Part shown: piece after piece, positions 29,405-38,490 of the stretch
How positions within the stretch are numbered: position 1 is the first letter of the stretch
Layout of the letters: each line of letters begins with the position of its first letter
Source: Oscillospiraceae bacterium
Lineage (GTDB): Bacteria > Bacillota > Clostridia > Oscillospirales > Acutalibacteraceae
DNA length: 38,490 bases
Assembly: GCA_902791235.1 (NCBI GenBank)
Contig: CADAUV010000007.1
Span: 1-38,490 of the forward strand
Reading direction: 5' to 3'
Translations under genes and position numbers: made by a program
Notes under the pieces: model-generated
The model's database searches: none
What the model saw: only the letters and a program-made list of their open reading frames with translations
Told to the model about the DNA's origin: nothing

Positions 29405-30055
29405 ATGTTTAAAAAAGGTAAAACGATTCTTTTTGATAATCCTCCCGTAATAACGGGTCACGCAGGCGTGGCAGGCAAAAAAGAGGGCGAGGGTCCTCTT
29501 GCCGAATACTTCGATATGATTTTTGAGGATTCAAGCCTCGGGAGAAAATCCTTTGAGCTTGCCGAGTCAGCAATGCTCAATAAGGCGATTTCATTATCCC
29601 TTGATAATGCCGGCAGGAGTCCGTCCGAGCTTGATTTTATATTGAGCGGCGACCTGCTTAATCAGTGCGTCGGCTCAAGCTTTGCCGTCAAGGAAATGGG
29701 CGTGCCTAGCATCGGTATGTACGGGGCATGCTCAACTATGGCGCTTACGCTGGCAACCTCTGCAATGCTGATTGACGCAGGCGCAACCTGCTGCGCCGCA
29801 GCCGCGTCAAGCCATTTCTGCTCAAGTGAAAGGCAGTTTCGCTACCCTCTTGAATACGGCGGACAGCGCACGCCGACGGCGCAGTGGACGGTAACAGGTG
29901 CAGGCAGCGCAGTGGTGGAAAAACAACCGCCCGATAATGCAAAATATGCAAAAATCACCGCCGCCCATATCGGTACAATCACCGACCTCTCAATCTCCGA
30001 CCCCGCAAATATGGGCGCCGCCATGGCACCTGTAAGTGGTAGAATTAGACCATAA
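29405..30055 (+). pseudogene. spoVAD: Truncated spoVAD (stage V sporulation protein AD)
   Basis: The first 209 codons match SpoVAD closely: TILFDNPPVITGHAGVAGKKEGEGP, LSGDLLNQCVG, MYGACSTMALT, SSHFCSSERQFRYPLEYGGQ, TVTGAGSAVV and DPANMGAAMAP. SpoVAD has a thiolase fold and carries dipicolinic acid into the forespore; the full protein is about 340 residues. After MGAAMAP, where AAADT is expected, the frame continues with seven unrelated residues (VSGRIRP) and stops at 30055. The break at about 30031 is where the TnpV-bearing DNA begins. The missing 3' part and spoVAE may lie beyond the window. The usual partner spoVAC is not upstream, where the glycosidase operon stands instead. Confidence 0.85.
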
Positions 30056-30133
30056 GGTGGTGCAAAACTTATCTACGAAATACTGCAAGAAAGGAGGAAA
30101 ACCGACAATATAAATCTACATATTGTACCACCT
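30055..30133 (+). repeat. Inverted repeat flanking the tnpV leader
   Basis: AGGTGGTGCAA (30055-30065) and TTGTACCACCT (30123-30133) are complementary at ten of eleven positions; the exception is a G-T pair, so the RNA stem would be unbroken. It ends 2 bp before the AAAGGAGG of tnpV. It could be an element end, a recombinase site or a leader fold. Confidence 0.5.
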
Positions 30134-30146
30134 GAAAGGAGGTAAA

Positions 30147-30674
30147 ATGTTAGTCAGAAATAATCTTACATACACAGAAATTGACGGGATTAACTACCCC
30201 GATTTTAAGGAAGGCAAGACTCCTCCCAAGCCAATAGGTCAATGGGGACGCAGGCACGCTTTCTATCTCAAAGAGTTCAACTATCCGAAGTATTTTCGTC
30301 TGCTCTGCACAGCGGATATGTATGATTACCTTGAACTTGTAAACGAAGAAGCTACCGAGCTGTACGATAAGCTGATTGAGCAGTACAAGAAAAAGCAAGG
30401 CGTAACCGAAAAACTCAAAGCAAAAGATATGATGGACTGGGTTGGCAGGATGAACAATATCCACAATCAAGTTACCGAAGTTGTATACAGTCAAGTGATT
30501 TTTGTTGATGAGGCGGTCAAGCAAGAACGCGTGGAACGCTATAAGCGATATAAGGGTGCGCTAAAGCCGGACGAAGAACCAGACTTCAAATCATTCGCTG
30601 AATTTGAAAAGAAAGAGGAGAGAAATCGGAAAGCAAGAGAAAAACGAAAGGCTAAAAAGAATGGATGTTCTTGA
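30147..30674 (+). CDS. tnpV: TnpV-like transposon-encoded protein
   Basis: 175 residues. Residues about 25-120 match TnpV, a protein of unknown function first named in Tn4451-type elements: PIGQWGRRHAFYLKE, a helix with LLCTADMYDYL, the VTEKLKAKDMMDWVGRMNNI block, and VYSQVIFV. Beyond the usual end the protein has about 50 extra residues, highly charged and finishing in a Lys/Arg-rich run. AAAGGAGG (30135-30142) precedes ATG 30147. It overlaps the next small gene by 14 nt. It marks the left part of the element that broke spoVAD. Confidence 0.75.
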   Translation: MLVRNNLTYTEIDGINYPDFKEGKTPPKPIGQWGRRHAFYLKEFNYPKYFRLLCTADMYDYLELVNEEATELYDKLIEQYKKKQGVTEKLKAKDMMDWVGRMNNIHNQVTEVVYSQVIFVDEAVKQERVERYKRYKGALKPDEEPDFKSFAEFEKKEERNRKAREKRKAKKNGCS

Positions 30675-30924
30675 AGAATTGTGGCACGGAAATATCGCCC
30701 CGCAAGAGTTTAACCATATCGAAGACAGTCCGGATTATCAAAACTCACTCCGCTTGGTGAACAACAACCGTGAGCGTTTAGAAAAGGGCTTATCGGAATA
30801 CCAAAACGACCTTTTTGAACGCTATAATACCAGCGTTGACGAACTAAACTCCCAGTCCGAACTCGATGCCTTCAAATCCGGCTTCAAACTAGCCACCCGC
30901 CTCATAATTTCCGCAATTACATAA
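30661..30924 (+). CDS. DUF6809-like small protein of mobile elements
   Basis: 87 residues. The opening VLEELWHGNIAPQE, the middle NRERLEKGLSEYQNDLFERY and the end FKSGFKLATRLIISAI follow the pattern of DUF6809 proteins, small helical proteins of unknown function common on clostridial conjugative elements. ATG 30661 lies inside the end of tnpV, so translation is coupled. A strong terminator follows 12 bp later, making tnpV plus this gene a closed two-gene unit. Confidence 0.7.
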   Translation: MDVLEELWHGNIAPQEFNHIEDSPDYQNSLRLVNNNRERLEKGLSEYQNDLFERYNTSVDELNSQSELDAFKSGFKLATRLIISAIT

Positions 30925-30935
30925 CAAAAACCAAG

Positions 30936-30967
30936 CAGTTGATGACACCCGTCACCAACTGTTTTTT
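30936..30967 (+). terminator. Terminator after the tnpV unit
   Basis: CAGTTGATGAC (30936-30946) pairs with GTCACCAACTG (30951-30961), with one G-T pair and an ACCC loop, followed by TTTTTT. The composition drops to very AT-rich right after it. Confidence 0.9.
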
Positions 30968-31054
30968 CTCATTTTTATGCTTTTTTTGTCAAATTTTTGT
31001 CTTTTTTTGAAAATTGTATTGACTTTTATAATAGTTTGTGCTTGTTTGAAATAG

Positions 31055-31188
31055 ACTTTTATATACAGTACATAATATTGTACACAAACCTAAAAGTATT
31101 GTAAAAAAAACAGATATATGTTATATTAATTTAATATACAATGTTTTTTACGACGTTTTTTGACGGTTAACTGTCAGTATATAAAAGT
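31055..31188 (+). promoter_or_regulatory. Repeat-rich control region before the helicase-nuclease gene
   Basis: A perfect 12-bp inverted repeat spans the region: ACTTTTATATAC (31055-31066) and GTATATAAAAGT (31177-31188). Between and beside them are GTACA...TGTAC (31068-31083), GTAAAAAA.../...TTTTTTAC near 31100-31150, and a near-palindrome TGACGGTTAACTGTCA (31161-31176). Promoter-like hexamers exist (TTGAAA 31046, TTGACG 31160) but none has ideal spacing. This looks like an operator region for an autoregulated operon. No regulator gene is visible. Confidence 0.45.
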
Positions 31189-31212
31189 ACTAAAATTCAA
31201 GGAGTACTATTT

Positions 31213-34089
31213 ATGGATGTTGAGAAAATTTTAAATGAAAACCTAACGCCCGATCAGCACGATGCAGTTATTGACGACAGTAAGAATATTTTGTGTTTAG
31301 CTTGTGCTGGTTCTGGAAAGTCGAGAACACTTGCATACAAAATTGCGTATTTGGTTTCTCAGGGGGCAGATCCTGAAAGCATAGTTGCCTTCACTTTTAC
31401 GGAAAAGGCTGCTGAATCTATAAAACGAAGAGTGGCAGAAGCACTTCATAAGTTTGGATATCCTGAAAACTATATTGGTGCTATGTTTATAGGTACCTTA
31501 GATTCGTTTTGTCAAAAACTATTGGGGAATATAGATGCATCGTATAGGCAATTTGATATTCTTGATGAGAACGGTTTATTCTTATTCGTTATGTCTCGTA
31601 TGTTTGATATTGGCATTCGTAACGGGGCAGGTGTTTTTAATCGTATTAATAGTTTAACGAAGGCATGGCAAACCGCAAATAATGAAAACATTGAAATTAG
31701 CGATATTCAACCGTATGACAATGTTTTATTTACCCAGTTACAGAATCTACAAACAGCATTAAACCAATATGGTTATATGGATTTTTCATATGCGATTAGA
31801 TTGGCTACAGATGAACTTAAGAAAATTGCTGATAAAACGGGTACCGACATTGAAAAATATCAGTATTTATTCGTAGACGAATATCAGGATATCAATCCTA
31901 TTCAAGAGGAATTTATTAAAACATTCTCTTCATTTACAGATATGCTATTTGTTGTAGGTGATGATGATCAATCAATCTACGGATGGCGCGGTGCAAATGT
32001 AAACAATATTTTGAACTTTCAGGAAAGATATGAAGATGTTTCAACGCATAAACTGCTTGTTAATTTTAGAAGCACTAAAGCAATTGTTGAAACGGCAAAC
32101 AGTTTTGTTCAATCAACTTTGAACTATGAGCGCCTTCCGAAAGATATCTCATCGCATTCAGATGGAAATATACAAGATTTAAGAAAACTGTGGTTTGACG
32201 ATCGTGAAGAAGAAGCAAAATGGATTGCCCAAAGAATAAAATCTTTAGTAGGAACAACCTATATTGAATACAATCCTGACGGTTCTGAAAAATCTCGCAG
32301 AGGTCTTACGTACAGCGATTTTGCAATATTACTTAGAAGTGTACGCAACTCAAACGGTGAAAACAGGGATGTACAGTTTGTTAATGCTTTAAAAGAATTA
32401 GATATTCCTGTAAAAACAACTGGTGAAGGCGGCATATTTGATAGGCCCTATGCTCAATGTATGCTCGACACAATGGAGTTGTTGAGAAATCAAGGTAACA
32501 ACAGAACGAACGCAGAACAACTATTTAATGATGAAATTATCAATGCATTTCCAAGAGCAAACAAAGAAAGATATTTAGCAGTTTTACAGCATTGGAATCA
32601 TGAAATTCATGCGCCTACTGACGGTGGTACAAGAAGAAAGGTATATCCTCAAAAACTCTTGCATGATTTACTTGATGCTTTCATGATAAAAGAACTGGAT
32701 GATGAAATAGCGTTAAGAGATTTAGGATTGTTTAGTCACATTATTCTAGATGTGGAACAAACCTATATAAGCATTGATTCTAAATGGCGATATGGGGAAA
32801 TGTTGAATTTCTTTCAGAATATTGCAAAGAATTCATACGAGTTAGAACCTATTGACTATATTGCAAAAGATAACGCTGTAAATATTTCAACTATTCACAG
32901 AGTTAAAGGATTAGAATTTCCTGTCGTTTTTGTAGCGGATTTAGTCAATCAAAGATTTCCAGGTAGAACGGAATCATATAAGGGAGTATTACCCGAAGAA
33001 TTAATGCATTCTGCTATTGAACGTGGTGCTTACGGTAATAGGATAGAGGACGAATCCAGACTGTTCTATACAGCGATAACTCGTGCAGAAAGAGTTTTAT
33101 ATTTAAGTGGAAGTTCTAATCACCCAGGATTAAGAAGAGCCAAAAAGCGTTCACAGTTTATCATTAATTTATCTCATCCAGATATGAGAGAAGATAAAGA
33201 GTTTGATGACTTAGATGTGAAAATGACCCCGTCACCAAAGTTTGATGATTCGGATTTTCCAACAGATTATTCTTCTGTAAAGAACTATTTAAGTTGTCCT
33301 TATTCATATAAACTGTCAACGATTTACGGTTATAATGCTGCCGTTCCTGAATTGTTCGGCTTTGGAAAAACGAGCCATACAACTTTAGAAAGGCTCCATC
33401 AACTGTTCAAAGATCATGCCCCAACTGAAGATGAGGTAAAAGAAATCGTTGATAAAACATTTATGCTCAAGCATGTATTCCCGAGTGCTGACCCAGTAAA
33501 TAGACCTGGTTCTTATGAAAGAGCTAAAGCTCTTTTGGAACGAATTCTCAAAGAGTATTCAGTAGAATATGCGGATGATTTTGGTAGAGTTCGTCAAGAC
33601 GAAGCGAGATTTGAAATATCCGTAAAAGACGCTTTAGTAACTGGAGCAATTGATTTACTGCTTAAAGAAGACCAAGAACGTCATATTACAACAGCCGATG
33701 TAATTGATTTTAAGACAATGGAACTACCAGATGATACGGGAGATTATGATTGGCGAGATATGTCACTTCAAGTTCAATTGTATTCTAAGGCTGCAAAAGA
33801 GATTATGGGTGAGAATGTTGAAACGGGATACATTCACACTCTTAAAGATAATGTTAGGACTTCAATACCTGTTGACAACGATTCGGTTGACAATGCAATA
33901 AAGGTGATTGAATGGGCTGTTGGAGGAATCCTTGAAAATGATTTTCCAAGACGTCCTTGCCGCGATAAATGCGATAAATGCGATTTTAAAGCGATGTGCT
34001 CTAAAAAAGCAGATAACTTTAAAAGAACCGACACTCCTCCAACTATTAACACTCCGAATGGCGAAAAGGAAATAGCGGCATTTGATTAA
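31213..34089 (+). CDS. UvrD-like SF1 helicase fused to a RecB/Cas4-type Fe-S nuclease
   Basis: 958 residues. The helicase part (about 1-660) has Walker A CAGSGKSRT (Lys36), Walker B FVDEYQD (Asp222-Glu223), GDDDQSIYGWRGA, IHRVKGLEFPVVFV, and motif VI YTAITRA (Arg624). The C-terminal part is a PD-(D/E)XK nuclease with GAID (Asp814), DVIDFK (Asp832, Lys834) and QVQLY (Gln853, Tyr857). Cys695 and the CxxCx5C at 920/923/929 fit the 4Fe-4S clamp of AddB and Cas4. Thus one chain has motor and nuclease as in AddA/AddB. It resembles neither housekeeping PcrA nor AddA in context: it starts the defence island and a cytosine methyltransferase follows 10 bp later. AAGGAG precedes ATG 31213. Confidence 0.88.
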   Translation: MDVEKILNENLTPDQHDAVIDDSKNILCLACAGSGKSRTLAYKIAYLVSQGADPESIVAFTFTEKAAESIKRRVAEALHKFGYPENYIGAMFIGTLDSFCQKLLGNIDASYRQFDILDENGLFLFVMSRMFDIGIRNGAGVFNRINSLTKAWQTANNENIEISDIQPYDNVLFTQLQNLQTALNQYGYMDFSYAIRLATDELKKIADKTGTDIEKYQYLFVDEYQDINPIQEEFIKTFSSFTDMLFVVGDDDQSIYGWRGANVNNILNFQERYEDVSTHKLLVNFRSTKAIVETANSFVQSTLNYERLPKDISSHSDGNIQDLRKLWFDDREEEAKWIAQRIKSLVGTTYIEYNPDGSEKSRRGLTYSDFAILLRSVRNSNGENRDVQFVNALKELDIPVKTTGEGGIFDRPYAQCMLDTMELLRNQGNNRTNAEQLFNDEIINAFPRANKERYLAVLQHWNHEIHAPTDGGTRRKVYPQKLLHDLLDAFMIKELDDEIALRDLGLFSHIILDVEQTYISIDSKWRYGEMLNFFQNIAKNSYELEPIDYIAKDNAVNISTIHRVKGLEFPVVFVADLVNQRFPGRTESYKGVLPEELMHSAIERGAYGNRIEDESRLFYTAITRAERVLYLSGSSNHPGLRRAKKRSQFIINLSHPDMREDKEFDDLDVKMTPSPKFDDSDFPTDYSSVKNYLSCPYSYKLSTIYGYNAAVPELFGFGKTSHTTLERLHQLFKDHAPTEDEVKEIVDKTFMLKHVFPSADPVNRPGSYERAKALLERILKEYSVEYADDFGRVRQDEARFEISVKDALVTGAIDLLLKEDQERHITTADVIDFKTMELPDDTGDYDWRDMSLQVQLYSKAAKEIMGENVETGYIHTLKDNVRTSIPVDNDSVDNAIKVIEWAVGGILENDFPRRPCRDKCDKCDFKAMCSKKADNFKRTDTPPTINTPNGEKEIAAFD

Positions 34090-34099
34090 AGGAGAAAAA

Positions 34100-35278
34100 A
34101 TGGCAAAAGCGATAGATATTTTTTCGGGGTGCGGTGGCGTCTCTTGCGGATTGTCACGTGCAGGATTTGATGTAAAAGTGGCTGTTGAACTAGATAAATC
34201 AGCTGCGGAAACCTATTCAAATTATGAGCCTTTGAAAAATGTTGATGTTATCATCAAAGATGTCTGTGAAGTTACAGGTGAAGAGATACTTAAAAAAGCT
34301 GGCATACAGGAAGGGGAACTCTATCTGTTTGCCGGCTGTCCGCCGTGCCAAAATTTCTCTATGCAAAATCCTAAAAATCGGCAAAAAAGCGAAAAAGAAA
34401 GAAAAAAGCTTCTATTTGAGTTTTTGAGGTTGATTGAAGAAATACATCCGCCATTTATCTTAATGGAAAATGTTCCGGGTATTACCACAAAATTCAATTC
34501 GAGGATTCTGAATTCGTTCATAAGAAGGCTTGAAAACAAAAAAGGCAGAAAAGATGAAAAATATCTCGTCCTTAAAGATGTTTTGAATGCGGCTGATTAT
34601 GGTGTTCCTCAAACGAGAAAAAGATTCGTATTGCATGCAGTAAGAATGGATGTTTATGAAGAACTTAAAGCGTGTGGATTGGAGTTTTCTCTTCCAAAAC
34701 CGACACATAGCAATAAAAAAGATAGCGAGTTACCTAAATGGGTTACGGCAAAAGAGGCTATAGATGATCTTCCGAGACTAGGCGTTGGAAAAGAGTACAA
34801 AGGTACAGGGAAAAAGAAAGTATACAACCATAAATGTGCCAACTTAAGTGAAGATAATCTGAAAAAGATGAAATACATTCGTGCGCACGGGGGATCACGT
34901 TCTTGTTTACCCGATTCAATGGTGTTGGATTGCCATAAAAAGAAAAAAGAGGATGGAAGTACTTTTACTGGTCACAATGATGTTTACGGAATAATGGACC
35001 CGAATAAGCCTGCACCCACTATGACTGGCGGGTGCTTGTGTTACAGCAAAGGTAGATACGGACACTATTCCCAAAACCGTGCAATTTCAATAAGAGAAGC
35101 TGCGCGCTTTCAAACTTTTCCAGATGATTTTGTCTTTAGTAATTCTTTGACAAAAGCGGCATTACAGATTGGAAATGCAGTCCCTGTAAAGCTTGTAGAA
35201 GCAAGCGCAGAAGAGTTTTTGAAAGATATTAACATAATACAAGAAAAAAGAAAAATAGACAAACAAAGCCGAACGTAA
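34100..35278 (+). CDS. C5-cytosine DNA methyltransferase M1
   Basis: 392 residues. It transfers a methyl group from SAM to C5 of cytosine. The motifs are in canonical order: I (IDIFSGCGGVSCGL), IV (GCPPCQNFS, catalytic Cys83), VI (LMENVPG), VIII (QTRKRFVLHA), IX (ISIREAARFQTFPDD) and X (IGNAVPVKL). The target-recognition region between VIII and IX, with GGCLCYSKGRYGHY, differs from the two methyltransferases downstream, so a different target is likely. AAAGGAG precedes ATG 34100. Only 10 bp separate it from the helicase-nuclease, and a terminator overlaps its stop, so the two genes form one operon. Confidence 0.93.
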   Translation: MAKAIDIFSGCGGVSCGLSRAGFDVKVAVELDKSAAETYSNYEPLKNVDVIIKDVCEVTGEEILKKAGIQEGELYLFAGCPPCQNFSMQNPKNRQKSEKERKKLLFEFLRLIEEIHPPFILMENVPGITTKFNSRILNSFIRRLENKKGRKDEKYLVLKDVLNAADYGVPQTRKRFVLHAVRMDVYEELKACGLEFSLPKPTHSNKKDSELPKWVTAKEAIDDLPRLGVGKEYKGTGKKKVYNHKCANLSEDNLKKMKYIRAHGGSRSCLPDSMVLDCHKKKKEDGSTFTGHNDVYGIMDPNKPAPTMTGGCLCYSKGRYGHYSQNRAISIREAARFQTFPDDFVFSNSLTKAALQIGNAVPVKLVEASAEEFLKDINIIQEKRKIDKQSRT

Positions 35279-35293
35279 TGTTCGGCTTTGTTT
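35261..35293 (+). terminator. Terminator closing the helicase-M1 operon
   Basis: AAACAAAGCCGAAC (35261-35274) pairs perfectly with GTTCGGCTTTGTTT (35280-35293). The M1 stop codon (35276-35278) lies in the five-base loop, so the last M1 codons form the 5' arm. Confidence 0.88.
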
Positions 35294-35357
35294 GTGGTGA
35301 GCTTTTTGGTTTTCTTACTATATTTATACTATTTTTCTTTATTTTTTCTATATTTTG

Positions 35358-35366
35358 TGTTATAAT
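35358..35366 (+). promoter_or_regulatory. Extended -10 promoter for the M2-M3-R operon
   Basis: TGTTATAAT (35358-35366) is a TGn-TATAAT extended -10. The matching -35 (TTTATT at 35338) is weak. Transcription would begin near 35373, 40 nt before M2. The sequence 35294-35357 is T-rich and holds nothing else I recognise. Confidence 0.55.
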
Positions 35367-35412
35367 AAATTCTATTAAATTGAATTAATAGTTTTATTAT
35401 TGGAGATACATT

Positions 35413-36456
35413 ATGAAAAAGCCCAAAAAATATAAAATCGTGGATTTGTTTAGCGGAGCAGGTGGATTAGAACTTGGATTTGAACAAGCTGGATATGAAA
35501 TCGTTTTTTCCACGGACTTTGACGAGTATTGTGAAAAGGTTCATATTAATAATAGACCTCAAATTCCATTTCTTAGAATGGATATACATGATTTGGATGA
35601 AAATATTCTTGACAAGTATATTAAGGAAGAAATAGATGTTCTTGTTGGTGGACCACCATGCCAGGGATTTTCAACTATCGGAAAAAGAATATCATCAGAT
35701 CCTAACAAGAGAAATGAAAAAGATCCAAGGAATACATTGTTTAAGGAATACATTCGTATATTGAATTATATTAAGCCAAAATTCTTCCTTATGGAGAATG
35801 TGGAGGGGTTATTAACCAGAGAAAAAGGTGCCATATTTGAAGAGATAAAAAAGACATTTGCGGAAACGGGTTACGAATTTAACTGTATTGTATTAAATGC
35901 AGCTGATTATGGCGTTCCTCAGATCCGAAATAGAATTTTTTTCTATGGTAATCGAGTTGGTATAAAAATGACTCCGCCAATACCTACGCATTCTGAAAAT
36001 GGTAGTACGCCGTGGAATACGGTCAATTCAGCCATTGGGGATTTAGCTAAAGTAGAGGAAAACAAGAAAATCAATCATGTTCCGTTAAAACACGGAGAAA
36101 TAAATATTAAGAGATACCAATTAATACCTGAAGGTGGAAGATTACCTGAAAAGGATTTACCACCTGAATTATATAGAAAGAATTTTGGGAATACATTTAA
36201 AAGGCTTCATAGAGATAAGCCGTCATTAACAATGGTTCCGGGTCATAATGCATTTCCAATACATCCTTGGCTTGATAGAAGCCTTACCGTGAGAGAAGCT
36301 GCAAGGATTCAGACATTTCCAGATGATTATATTTTTGTTGGTCCACGACACAAGCAATGCATGCAAGTTGGGAATGCGGTTCCGCCTATGTTGGCTAAAG
36401 CTTGGGGAGAGCAGATCAAAAAGGAGTTGGATGAGTATTATGAAAAAACAAAATAG
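35413..36456 (+). CDS. C5-cytosine DNA methyltransferase M2
   Basis: 347 residues with motif I (VDLFSGAGGLELGFEQAGY), motif IV (GGPPCQGFSTIGKR, Cys83), VI (LMENVEGLL), VIII (QIRNRIFFYG), IX (LTVREAARIQTFPDD) and X (VGNAVPPMLA). The recognition region contains TMVPGHNAFPIHP, shared almost exactly with M3. TTGGAG precedes ATG 35413. It overlaps M3 by 26 nt. M2 and M3 together could each modify one strand of an asymmetric site, the arrangement known from several type IIS systems. The actual target cannot be read. Confidence 0.93.
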   Translation: MKKPKKYKIVDLFSGAGGLELGFEQAGYEIVFSTDFDEYCEKVHINNRPQIPFLRMDIHDLDENILDKYIKEEIDVLVGGPPCQGFSTIGKRISSDPNKRNEKDPRNTLFKEYIRILNYIKPKFFLMENVEGLLTREKGAIFEEIKKTFAETGYEFNCIVLNAADYGVPQIRNRIFFYGNRVGIKMTPPIPTHSENGSTPWNTVNSAIGDLAKVEENKKINHVPLKHGEINIKRYQLIPEGGRLPEKDLPPELYRKNFGNTFKRLHRDKPSLTMVPGHNAFPIHPWLDRSLTVREAARIQTFPDDYIFVGPRHKQCMQVGNAVPPMLAKAWGEQIKKELDEYYEKTK

Positions 36457-37471
36457 TTTAACTTTTATTGATTTGTTTAGCGGTGCAGGAGGCTTATTAA
36501 GAGGATTTATGGATGCTGGATATAATCCTGTTTTTTCTGTTGAGATGTGGGAACCAGCTATTGATACGCATAAGATGAATTATCCTTCGGTTAAGATTAT
36601 AGAATCAGATATTCGAAATATTAGTAACGGTTTTCTTAACAAGTATTGTAATAAAGTGGATGTAATTGTGGGAGGACCACCTTGCCAAGGATTTTCAACT
36701 ATTGGAAAAAGAATAGTTAAAGATCCAAGGAACGAATTGGTTTTTGAGTTTATAAGGTTTGTAGACACCATTAAACCTAAAGCGTTTCTTATGGAAAATG
36801 TAAGGGGATTATTGTCATCAAACGGAGGAAAAACTAAGACTGCAATCGAAGAAGAGTTTAAGAGTATTGGGTATAATGTAGTATCTAAAGTTTTGTGTGC
36901 AGCAGATTATGGTGTCCCACAAATGCGTAATAGAGTCTTTTTTATGGGTATTAGGAAAGACTTGAATATTTCTCCTACTTTTCCTGAAAAGACACATAAA
37001 CCTGAAGAGTATGTAACCGTAGGTGCCGCAATTGGTGATTTAGTAGGAAAGGAAAATGAAATACCAAACCATATTCCAATGAAACATAATGCGGTCGTAA
37101 CAGAAAGAATAAAGTATATCAAAGAAGGTGAGGGTATTCCAAAGAACGGTTTGCCTGCGGATATTGCATATGGTTCGCGAAGTGACTATTCTAATAATGA
37201 ACTGAAAAATTTCAGTCATGTGTATAGACGTTTAAGCCGTTTTAAGCCTGCAACAACCATGGTGCCAGGACACAATGCTTTTCCGCTTCATCCGACGGAA
37301 AACAGAAGTTTGACAGTTCGGGAAGCTGCAAGGATTCAAACCTTTCCCGATGATGTTGTTTTTTGTGGCACAAGACAAAATCAATGTATACAAGTAGGAA
37401 ATGCTGTGCCAGTCGAATTAGCATATCAATTAGCAAAGCATATTGAAAAAACACTTTCAAAGGAGAATTAA
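36431..37471 (+). CDS. C5-cytosine DNA methyltransferase M3
   Basis: About 346 residues. Motifs: I (IDLFSGAGGLLRGF), IV (GGPPCQGFSTIGKR, Cys85 from this start), VI (LMENVRGLL), VIII (QMRNRVFFMG), IX (LTVREAARIQTFPDD), X (VGNAVPVELA). It is clearly homologous to M2 along its length, but with about a dozen extra residues in the recognition region before YRRLSRFKPATTMVPG. AAGGAG at 36421 favours ATG 36431 (4-nt gap) over ATG 36440 (13-nt gap). The gene begins inside M2 and is followed after 2 bp by an endonuclease-like gene. Confidence 0.93.
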   Translation: MSIMKKQNSLTFIDLFSGAGGLLRGFMDAGYNPVFSVEMWEPAIDTHKMNYPSVKIIESDIRNISNGFLNKYCNKVDVIVGGPPCQGFSTIGKRIVKDPRNELVFEFIRFVDTIKPKAFLMENVRGLLSSNGGKTKTAIEEEFKSIGYNVVSKVLCAADYGVPQMRNRVFFMGIRKDLNISPTFPEKTHKPEEYVTVGAAIGDLVGKENEIPNHIPMKHNAVVTERIKYIKEGEGIPKNGLPADIAYGSRSDYSNNELKNFSHVYRRLSRFKPATTMVPGHNAFPLHPTENRSLTVREAARIQTFPDDVVFCGTRQNQCIQVGNAVPVELAYQLAKHIEKTLSKEN

Positions 37472-37473
37472 AC

Positions 37474-38490
37474 ATGGGTGAATTTCATGATGCAGCCGCA
37501 ACATTTTATGGAGATACAATCCTAAATAAAATTCGCGTATCAGATGCAGATTTCAAACAAGTTTTTTCTGATTCTATTATACGTACTGGCGATTGGGATT
37601 GGCCAAGACCTGATTATGTGTGTTTTGATGAAGTACTTAATGCAACCTATGCGCTAGAGTTTAAACCACCTTTCCAAAATAAAAGAGAGTATTTAACTGG
37701 TCTTGGACAGTCATTGGCATATTTACAAAAGCATATGTATTCGGGATTAATTGTGCCATATGTTGCTGATGATGGATTTTATATTGCCGATTTTATAGCT
37801 GATACCTTAAAATCGCCAGAGTTTGAAACAGTTGCAACTTCGCTTTATGCATACGATTATAATAAAGAAACAATTGATCTGTTAAGACCAATTACTGTTT
37901 TAAGAGACGAAGCAAAACTAAAAATTGAAACACCAAGTAACCAAACATTTTGGTGCTGGTGGAGAGATATTAGCCATTACGAGTTATACGATTTATTAAA
38001 TTTGAGCTTTATGTATAATGATTATAGCGGTGATATCTATTCTCAACACATATATCCAACGTTTTACAAAATGATGATTAATAAGCAGACGAAACAATGG
38101 AATGGTAATCCACGCTCAAAAACTGGTTCTGAAGCGTCTATGAAATCTGAAAAGCAGAATTACAAAATTCCTTTGGTGCAATTGGAACTATGGTCTCGTA
38201 GTGAAGGAAGACTAACTGATACAGGATTTGAACTGTTAGAAATCGGGAAAAAGTTTGGACCGGATAGTAAAAGATTCAGAGACAAGCTTGCATATTTGTT
38301 ACTTGTAAATGGCCGTCATTTAGATTTAATTAATATTGTTGATAAGTTTCAAAAAGCGTATAAAGTTTCAGAAAAGAGCGATGAACATGCCCTTGCTTTA
38401 GAAAAGTTTTTAACCGATAATGGTTGCATTGGAAAAAGAAAACCAACCGCAAAAACAACTGGCGCAAAGAATAGTTATCTGCGAGACGAA
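37474..38490 (+). CDS. Putative PD-(D/E)XK restriction endonuclease (3' end outside window)
   Basis: The frame is open from ATG 37474 to the window edge (339 codons and more). AGGAGAA stands 7 nt before the start. The N-terminal part carries a PD-(D/E)XK-like core: PRPDYV (Asp47), ALEFKPP (Glu62, Lys64) and GLGQSLAYLQ (Gln79, Tyr83, a QxxxY). The following 250 residues are mixed, with aromatic-rich segments (FWCWWRDISHYELYD), and I do not recognise the family. A helical part around residues 235-310 may bind DNA. Its position as third gene behind two methyltransferases suggests the restriction subunit of that system. Specificity is unknown. Confidence 0.75.
   Translation, partial: MGEFHDAAATFYGDTILNKIRVSDADFKQVFSDSIIRTGDWDWPRPDYVCFDEVLNATYALEFKPPFQNKREYLTGLGQSLAYLQKHMYSGLIVPYVADDGFYIADFIADTLKSPEFETVATSLYAYDYNKETIDLLRPITVLRDEAKLKIETPSNQTFWCWWRDISHYELYDLLNLSFMYNDYSGDIYSQHIYPTFYKMMINKQTKQWNGNPRSKTGSEASMKSEKQNYKIPLVQLELWSRSEGRLTDTGFELLEIGKKFGPDSKRFRDKLAYLLLVNGRHLDLINIVDKFQKAYKVSEKSDEHALALEKFLTDNGCIGKRKPTAKTTGAKNSYLRDE

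Follow-up and report, generated by a model that had tools for sequence, protein, structure and literature searches.

Does a RecBCD-like motor-nuclease assist restriction enzymes as a helper, or can it be a restriction subunit itself? The question is raised by two adjacent genes towards the end of a 38,490-nucleotide stretch of DNA from an Oscillospiraceae bacterium, referred to here as the window, which is the whole of contig CADAUV010000007.1 (C7) of an incomplete genome. The genes encode a helicase-nuclease fusion protein, which we call HN, and a C5-cytosine DNA methyltransferase, M1. HN-M1 is a clean member of a predicted defence-linked family that was already described in 2017. On balance, we lean towards reading the pair as a cassette for restriction-type defence that is carried by a mobile island, with HN as an effector that plugs into restriction-modification modules. 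The basis of this reading is the domains, the conserved active sites, the linkage to methyltransferases, the separate lineage of M1 and the mobile context. With only two genes, and with similarly arranged relatives on viral contigs, the HN-M1 case would make the question directly testable.

The HN fusion and its partner M1

HN (31213-34089, forward strand, ATG start) is a single chain of 958 residues in which a UvrD-type superfamily 1 (SF1) helicase is followed by a Cas4/AddB-like PD-(D/E)XK nuclease. An earlier note, made from the letters of the window alone, had placed HN and M1 at these same positions, 10 bp apart, and had read the same architecture, on which Pfam, an AlphaFold model and Foldseek now agree. 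Pfam matches to UvrD-helicase (3.7e-53) and UvrD_C (1.7e-35) precede one to PDDEXK_1 (2e-20), and Cas_Cas4 scored 22.5 bits, just under its cut-off of 22.7. The structural model, for which plain UvrD proteins made up half of the 34 input sequences, superseded an earlier model with a predicted local distance difference test score (pLDDT) of 59.2; it reached a mean pLDDT of 88.4 and a predicted template modelling score (pTM) of 0.90. Searches with this model in Foldseek returned UvrD/PcrA chains (also Rep) as the best matches and, over more columns, AddAB, RecB and AdnAB. In PADLOC the top match of the helicase part was RTasHel of DRT, with GajB models next.

Conservation was assessed over a family set of 42 distinct loci, the window included, each contributing its best open reading frame (ORF) matching both the full-length and the nuclease profiles. 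The split relative L025 and weaker or nuclease-less matches (for example L014, L032, L150 and L151) were left out, and the set holds near copies in its Nitrosomonas, Enterococcus and Priestia pairs. The catalytic residues and four cysteines that had been named in the earlier note are kept in 39-42 of these members, and so are H722 and E797. By position, the counts are R624, C695 and H722 in all 42, D222, E223, E797, D814, D832, K834, Q853 and Y857 in 41 each, and K36 in 39. The remaining cysteines are kept in 40 (C920), 41 (C923) and 39 (C929) members, and together with C695 they lie across the nuclease domain in the AddB/DNA2 manner of an iron staple, a feature presented in PMC7430649, suggesting that this domain may bind an iron-sulphur (Fe-S) cluster of the 4Fe-4S type. 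Exceptions come from cut or split copies (L013, L148 and L159), from L136, which has a histidine at the position of K36, and from L031 and L139, which deviate at the cysteines. Judged by these residues, both the motor and the nuclease of HN look intact.

M1 (34100-35278, forward strand) is assigned to the C5-cytosine DNA methyltransferases by Pfam (PF00145) and has 392 residues from its ATG; a TTG at 34082 is an alternative possible start. An AGGAG ribosome site lies in the 10-bp gap from the stop codon of HN to the ATG of M1. M1 shares 32% and 30% identity with the two methyltransferases next door, M2 and M3, whose recognition regions the earlier note had described as different from its own. 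In a tree of 5-methylcytosine (m5C) methyltransferases (16 rows, careful method), it falls in a separate clade (support 100/99) with the enzymes found beside four relatives of HN (L155, L220, L137 and L228) and three plasmid enzymes from Pantoea, Rhizobium and Polaromonas, of which the last is its closest neighbour (87/86).

Methyltransferases beside relatives of HN

Close relatives of HN are rare in related genomes: of 295 genomes from the same order, 4 have one at 1e-40, and of 398 from the same phylum, 2 have one at 1e-50, the genome of the window counting in each case and two candidates being scored per genome. In a tree of the family made by a quick method (41 rows, long branches), HN belongs to a clade of six loci (Shimodaira-Hasegawa-like approximate likelihood ratio test, SH-aLRT, 95) comprising the window, L155, L220, L137, L228 and L156; at least four of these rows (L137, L155, L220 and L228) were flagged for odd letter make-up, and the fork inside the clade is open. 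All six loci have an m5C gene inside about 2.5 kb. The five other than the window each have a single m5C gene, and none of the five holds a relative of R, the putative endonuclease that follows M2 and M3 in the window, although L155 is cut right at its methyltransferase. Such repeated m5C linkage away from an M2-M3-R unit is what the earlier note had suggested looking for and, with the separate lineage of M1, it supports the proposal that HN-M1 is a unit of its own in a restriction-type setting.

The nearest relatives, L155 and L220, are both on IMG/VR viral contigs and are 44% identical to HN and 60% to each other. In L155 the methyltransferase gene lies 23 bp upstream of HN, right at the contig end, and an integrase gene follows HN on the opposite strand. 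The order in L220 (6607-14118) is AAA ATPase, methyltransferase, HN and an HNH gene, with 1 bp between methyltransferase and HN if the latter begins at its first ATG. An ATPase 67% identical to that of L220 stands beside the methyltransferase in L228 (6333-9246), divergent from HN. PADLOC gave HEC-04 (partial) for both ATPases and also AriA for that of L220; from AAA_15/AAA_21 and motifs judged by eye they may be read as OLD-like, and the domain scan reported no OLD TOPRIM family on either. In L156, Vsr is encoded downstream of HN.

Across the wider family, a methyltransferase was detected nearby in 31 of the 42 loci with profiles that would miss HsdM-type enzymes. Homologues scattered without methyltransferases, which the earlier note had named as evidence against a linked module, are hence not what we observed. 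A type III-like methyltransferase and Res adjoin at least 18 members, and at two further loci (L148 and L030) annotation or Pfam identifies a methyltransferase together with a Res-like gene, making at least 20 altogether. An m5C gene adjoins eight members, namely the six of the clade, L010 and L019, and three have another N6/N4 methyltransferase (L020, L013 and L227). L010 and L019 carry type II endonuclease genes, MspI and MvaI/BcnI respectively, and lie in a different branch of the HN tree, among the type III cases. The frequent company of a methyltransferase and a Res-like gene favours a helper role for HN, which was the second option in the earlier note.

This linkage can be set against chance. 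Among 81 ORFs that are nearest on each side of the 42 HN loci, Pfam identified 19 members of PF01555 and 3 of PF00145. Neither family is among the 25 listed for 86 ORFs around 43 plain UvrD loci, where the smallest listed family has 2 members and up to 2 control matches per methyltransferase family are therefore possible; the Fisher p value is 3e-6 assuming 2 additional control matches and 7e-5 assuming 4. Controls were drawn from a contig profile scan (best 80 of 581, of which 73 are non-family members), and the 43 are a sample of 68 two-sided control loci. A profile-based count found a methyltransferase within 4 kb in 22 of 33 HN loci and in 0 of 73 controls, although its profiles were built partly from these very neighbours, making the Pfam count the fairer one. 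In 21 of the 22 loci the methyltransferase is on the same strand as HN, and many are directly adjacent.

A recurring plasmid set combines HN with an N6/N4 methyltransferase and a Res-like protein in hosts from the Pseudomonadota, Bacillota and Bacteroidota (L016, L017, L018, L021, L022, L143, L144, L145, L147 and L149); in L016 and L022 the Res-like protein bears a C-terminal TnsA-like nuclease. The same-order relative L013 (1-6862), with its N6/N4-type methyltransferase, is found beside an apparent type II CRISPR-Cas locus and repeat array. On two contigs of the viral collection (L158, 10692-13865; L229, 12745-17292), proteins of the Sacsin-like / NO VEIN C-terminal kind come directly after HN. 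The split relative of archaeal L025 (7220-17851) adjoins the 7-deazaguanine genes queC, folE, queE and a TGT-like gene, which suggests a tie to another DNA modification. In Fusobacterium L142 (8989-15672), the HN relative is directly followed by genes for a metallophosphoesterase and a large ATPase resembling SbcCD, an arrangement that suggests a repair branch of the family.

We also considered HN as an ordinary phage helicase and rejected this, since none of its eight matches in phage records at 1e-30 covers more than 80% of the protein; the Athalassotoga relative had no match in these records at 1e-50. The closest relatives do, however, lie on IMG/VR viral contigs. Searches of viral contigs with HN alone and with the Enterococcus relative gave no usable matches, and HN of L155 had none among plasmids at 1e-50.

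The island and the neighbouring unit

The host genome has a spoVAD gene, but in two parts. In the window it spans 29405-30055 and is interrupted at 30027-30032 by the left junction of the island, CACCTG on the forward strand; an identical hexamer marks the right junction on contig C58, where the remaining half of the gene lies (L301, L303). Joining the two flanks restores a single open frame of 337 residues. GC content falls from 0.45 over positions 1-30000 to 0.36 in HN, 0.38 in M1 and 0.36 from M2 to R. Thus, the split gene, the matching junction hexamers and the low GC content indicate that the HN-M1 cassette is carried by an island within a sporulation gene. At its left end, upstream of HN, are TnpV and DUF6809 genes (30123-30924), a stretch with a GC content of 0.42. 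Skin elements leave their host gene during sporulation, and the spoVAD island may possibly be a skin-like element of this kind.

The host also encodes AddA, which scores 842 bits with its neighbours and is above the cut-off, and a fragment of AddB at a contig end, which at 330 bits is below it. HN therefore comes on top of AddA and an at least partial AddB, and is not the housekeeping end-processor.

M1 is followed by a second set of genes on the forward strand, encoding the C5-cytosine methyltransferases M2 (35413-36456) and M3 (36437-37471), both assigned by Pfam and the m5C tree, and the putative type IIS-like endonuclease R (37474-38490). M2 and M3 group with both halves of a double methyltransferase from Acinetobacter (80/81, an open fork), and R is 27% identical over 77% to an ORF that comes after a double m5C methyltransferase on the Acinetobacter plasmids pBspH11 and pAV1. 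Residues 211-293 of R are weakly similar to PaqCI, a type IIS enzyme (6.7e-5). The neighbouring endonuclease of the earlier note corresponds to this putative R gene, which runs from 37474 and is cut short at 38490, where the contig stops. Taken together, M2-M3-R has the look of an ordinary type II unit. Since M1 belongs to another m5C lineage than M2 and M3, and the relative of R stands beside a double methyltransferase, the window appears to hold two units, with M1 paired with HN. The terminator once proposed to close the HN-M1 unit corresponds to a hairpin of 16 pairs (35259-35295) that overlaps the 3' end of M1; it has a terminator score on the minus strand only and would be a two-way terminator at best.

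Possible roles of HN

If HN is indeed an effector within restriction-type modules, M1 would deposit a 5-methylcytosine mark on self DNA and so might protect it, while HN would engage invading DNA that is broken or otherwise opened. HN would unwind this DNA with its SF1 motor, probably 3'-5' by homology, and its Fe-S-braced nuclease could cut the strands, so that a single cut would lead to destruction of the whole molecule, much as RecBCD acts on phage DNA that has been cut. A sequence-specific partner would most likely provide the ends or entry points; candidates are M1 or the neighbouring type IIS-like R in the window and, in relatives, Res or a type II endonuclease. The family is found across type III, type II and m5C settings, and an effector acting on DNA that a partner has opened or flagged is the simplest account of this range.

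Several observations weigh against such a role. In 11 of the 42 loci no methyltransferase was detected (L012, L029, L031, L047, L136, L138, L139, L142, L146, L158 and L159), although L012, L138 and L159 end at contig edges and L029 has a type I endonuclease-like gene. L142 lies by its SbcCD-like genes, L031, L047, L136 and L139 lie by housekeeping-type genes, and part of the wider family probably consists of repair proteins. The methyltransferase tree matches the HN tree only partly, since the L156 enzyme is outside the M1 clade on a very long branch and the Polaromonas enzyme nearest to M1 has no HN in the stretch covered. The control loci are housekeeping by their neighbours and unmatched for a mobile or defence-island setting, so that an island effect may account for part of the contrast. 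Furthermore, a pure helper role would predict a dedicated endonuclease directly adjoining the pair, and neither the window nor L155, which is cut at its methyltransferase, has one.

A second reading is a more autonomous function, in which HN-M1 would be a stand-alone restriction enzyme, M1 sensing an unmethylated site and loading HN, which as the restriction subunit would unwind and degrade the DNA with no need for another endonuclease. The close pairing in the window, L155 and L220 (gaps of 10, 23 and 1 bp) fits this idea, as does the opposite-strand integrase of L155, which leaves no endonuclease gene directly after HN; a like idea is floated for the protein Bad by the authors of PMC7430649. 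Nevertheless, the Pfam scan detected no target-recognition domain in HN, and the numerous members with a methyltransferase and a separate Res-like gene, together with the type II endonucleases of L010 and L019, do not conform to it. The pair in L220 is also adjoined by its AAA ATPase and HNH genes, and in Pantoea L304 an M1-type methyltransferase occurs with no HN inside 3 kb. We thus consider a stand-alone enzyme possible but rather unlikely. We also doubt that HN-M1 is a new two-protein restriction type, in which the m5C enzyme would give both recognition and the self mark and HN would unwind and immediately shred unmethylated DNA instead of just cutting it, and hold this to be unlikely; were it true, the ATPase-bearing relatives L220 and L228 would represent a Gabija-like extension.

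Alternatively, HN could be a general helicase-nuclease serving repair or replication of the mobile element, its association with methyltransferases stemming from shared residence in defence islands. Members located by SbcCD-like or housekeeping-type genes (L142, L047 and L031, partly judged by eye) agree with this, the fold is common to AddAB, RecB and AdnAB, and stand-alone copies of the fusion are reported in PMC5704561. Against it stand the same-strand, often adjacent placement of nearly all methyltransferases within 4 kb, the co-variation of HN type and methyltransferase type between the two trees, and the AddAB components that the host already has, all of which render this explanation quite improbable in our view. 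Finally, the one low-GC island shared by all these genes would also accommodate HN as an unlinked passenger and M1 as an orphan methyltransferase, with only M2-M3-R forming a restriction system. This is disfavoured by the five other loci of the clade, each of which has HN with one m5C gene but lacks any relative of R, the two genes being immediate neighbours in L155 and L220, and we regard it as very improbable.

Relation to known systems

Of the systems with UvrD-like proteins, Gabija is approached by the GajB matches of the HN helicase part and by the AAA ATPases, read as OLD-like, near the HN-m5C pairs of L220 and L228. GajB is not known to have a nuclease domain, and a scan of seven window ORFs (30123-38490) showed no GajA-like (OLD-family) gene, so that HN-M1 was not assigned to Gabija. 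Type III restriction-modification was also rejected for the window, where the unit has only m5C methyltransferases and HN and no N6/N4 Mod with a superfamily 2 Res, as is present in many relatives. With AddAB, RecBCD and AdnAB, HN shares an SF1 motor joined to a RecB-family nuclease, the AddB-like four-cysteine pattern and fold matches; unlike these, it has no partner subunit adjoining. It is neither AddA nor RecB, scoring 178.5 bits against an equivalog cut-off of 707.65 for the former and 109 against 696.05 for the latter.

Bad, as presented in PMC7430649, is a bacterial DNA2-like helicase-nuclease located by a type III-like methyltransferase, and the suggestion there is that it may represent a restriction enzyme of a new class. 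Both proteins have an Fe-S nuclease fused to an SF1 helicase with a methyltransferase adjoining. In Bad, however, the nuclease comes before an SF1B motor and the methyltransferase is a type III-like N6-adenine enzyme, whereas in HN the UvrD-type motor comes first and the methyltransferase is an m5C enzyme. UvrD-Cas4-like fusions also appear in putative defence settings of Nocardia in PMC7641849, and PMC10653904 describes a Cas4-like nuclease and a UvrD of Synechococcus, named there as separate proteins, which are reported to reduce plasmid transfer or maintenance. Further context is offered by PMC12839542, PMC2292703 and PMC10952713. Among the open-licence papers listed in our searches, none showed an experimental test of a UvrD-Cas4-like fusion.

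The closest precedent is the work of Hudaiberdiev et al. (2017; PMC5704561), in which UvrD-Cas4-like fusions are reported next to type III Mod/Res genes or next to Dcm, which may or may not be accompanied by Vsr. The authors predict that the fusions play an ancillary part in several defence systems. There, the fusion is the largest pfam12705 branch, and RecB is also present in most of its bacterial carriers. HN, with its N-terminal UvrD-type SF1 helicase, its C-terminal PDDEXK_1 nuclease and an m5C gene 10 bp downstream, is such a fusion, and our own tree places it among the methyltransferase-linked ones; domain order, nuclease family and both gene contexts are alike. Consequently, the candidate module cannot be called undescribed, as it had been in the earlier note. 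Section 8 of PMC5704561 treats these fusions as a prediction without activity, and to what that section contains the present analysis adds the sub-clade with m5C genes, the immediate pairing of HN with M1, the AAA ATPase near the pair in L220 and L228, and the location of the island in spoVAD.

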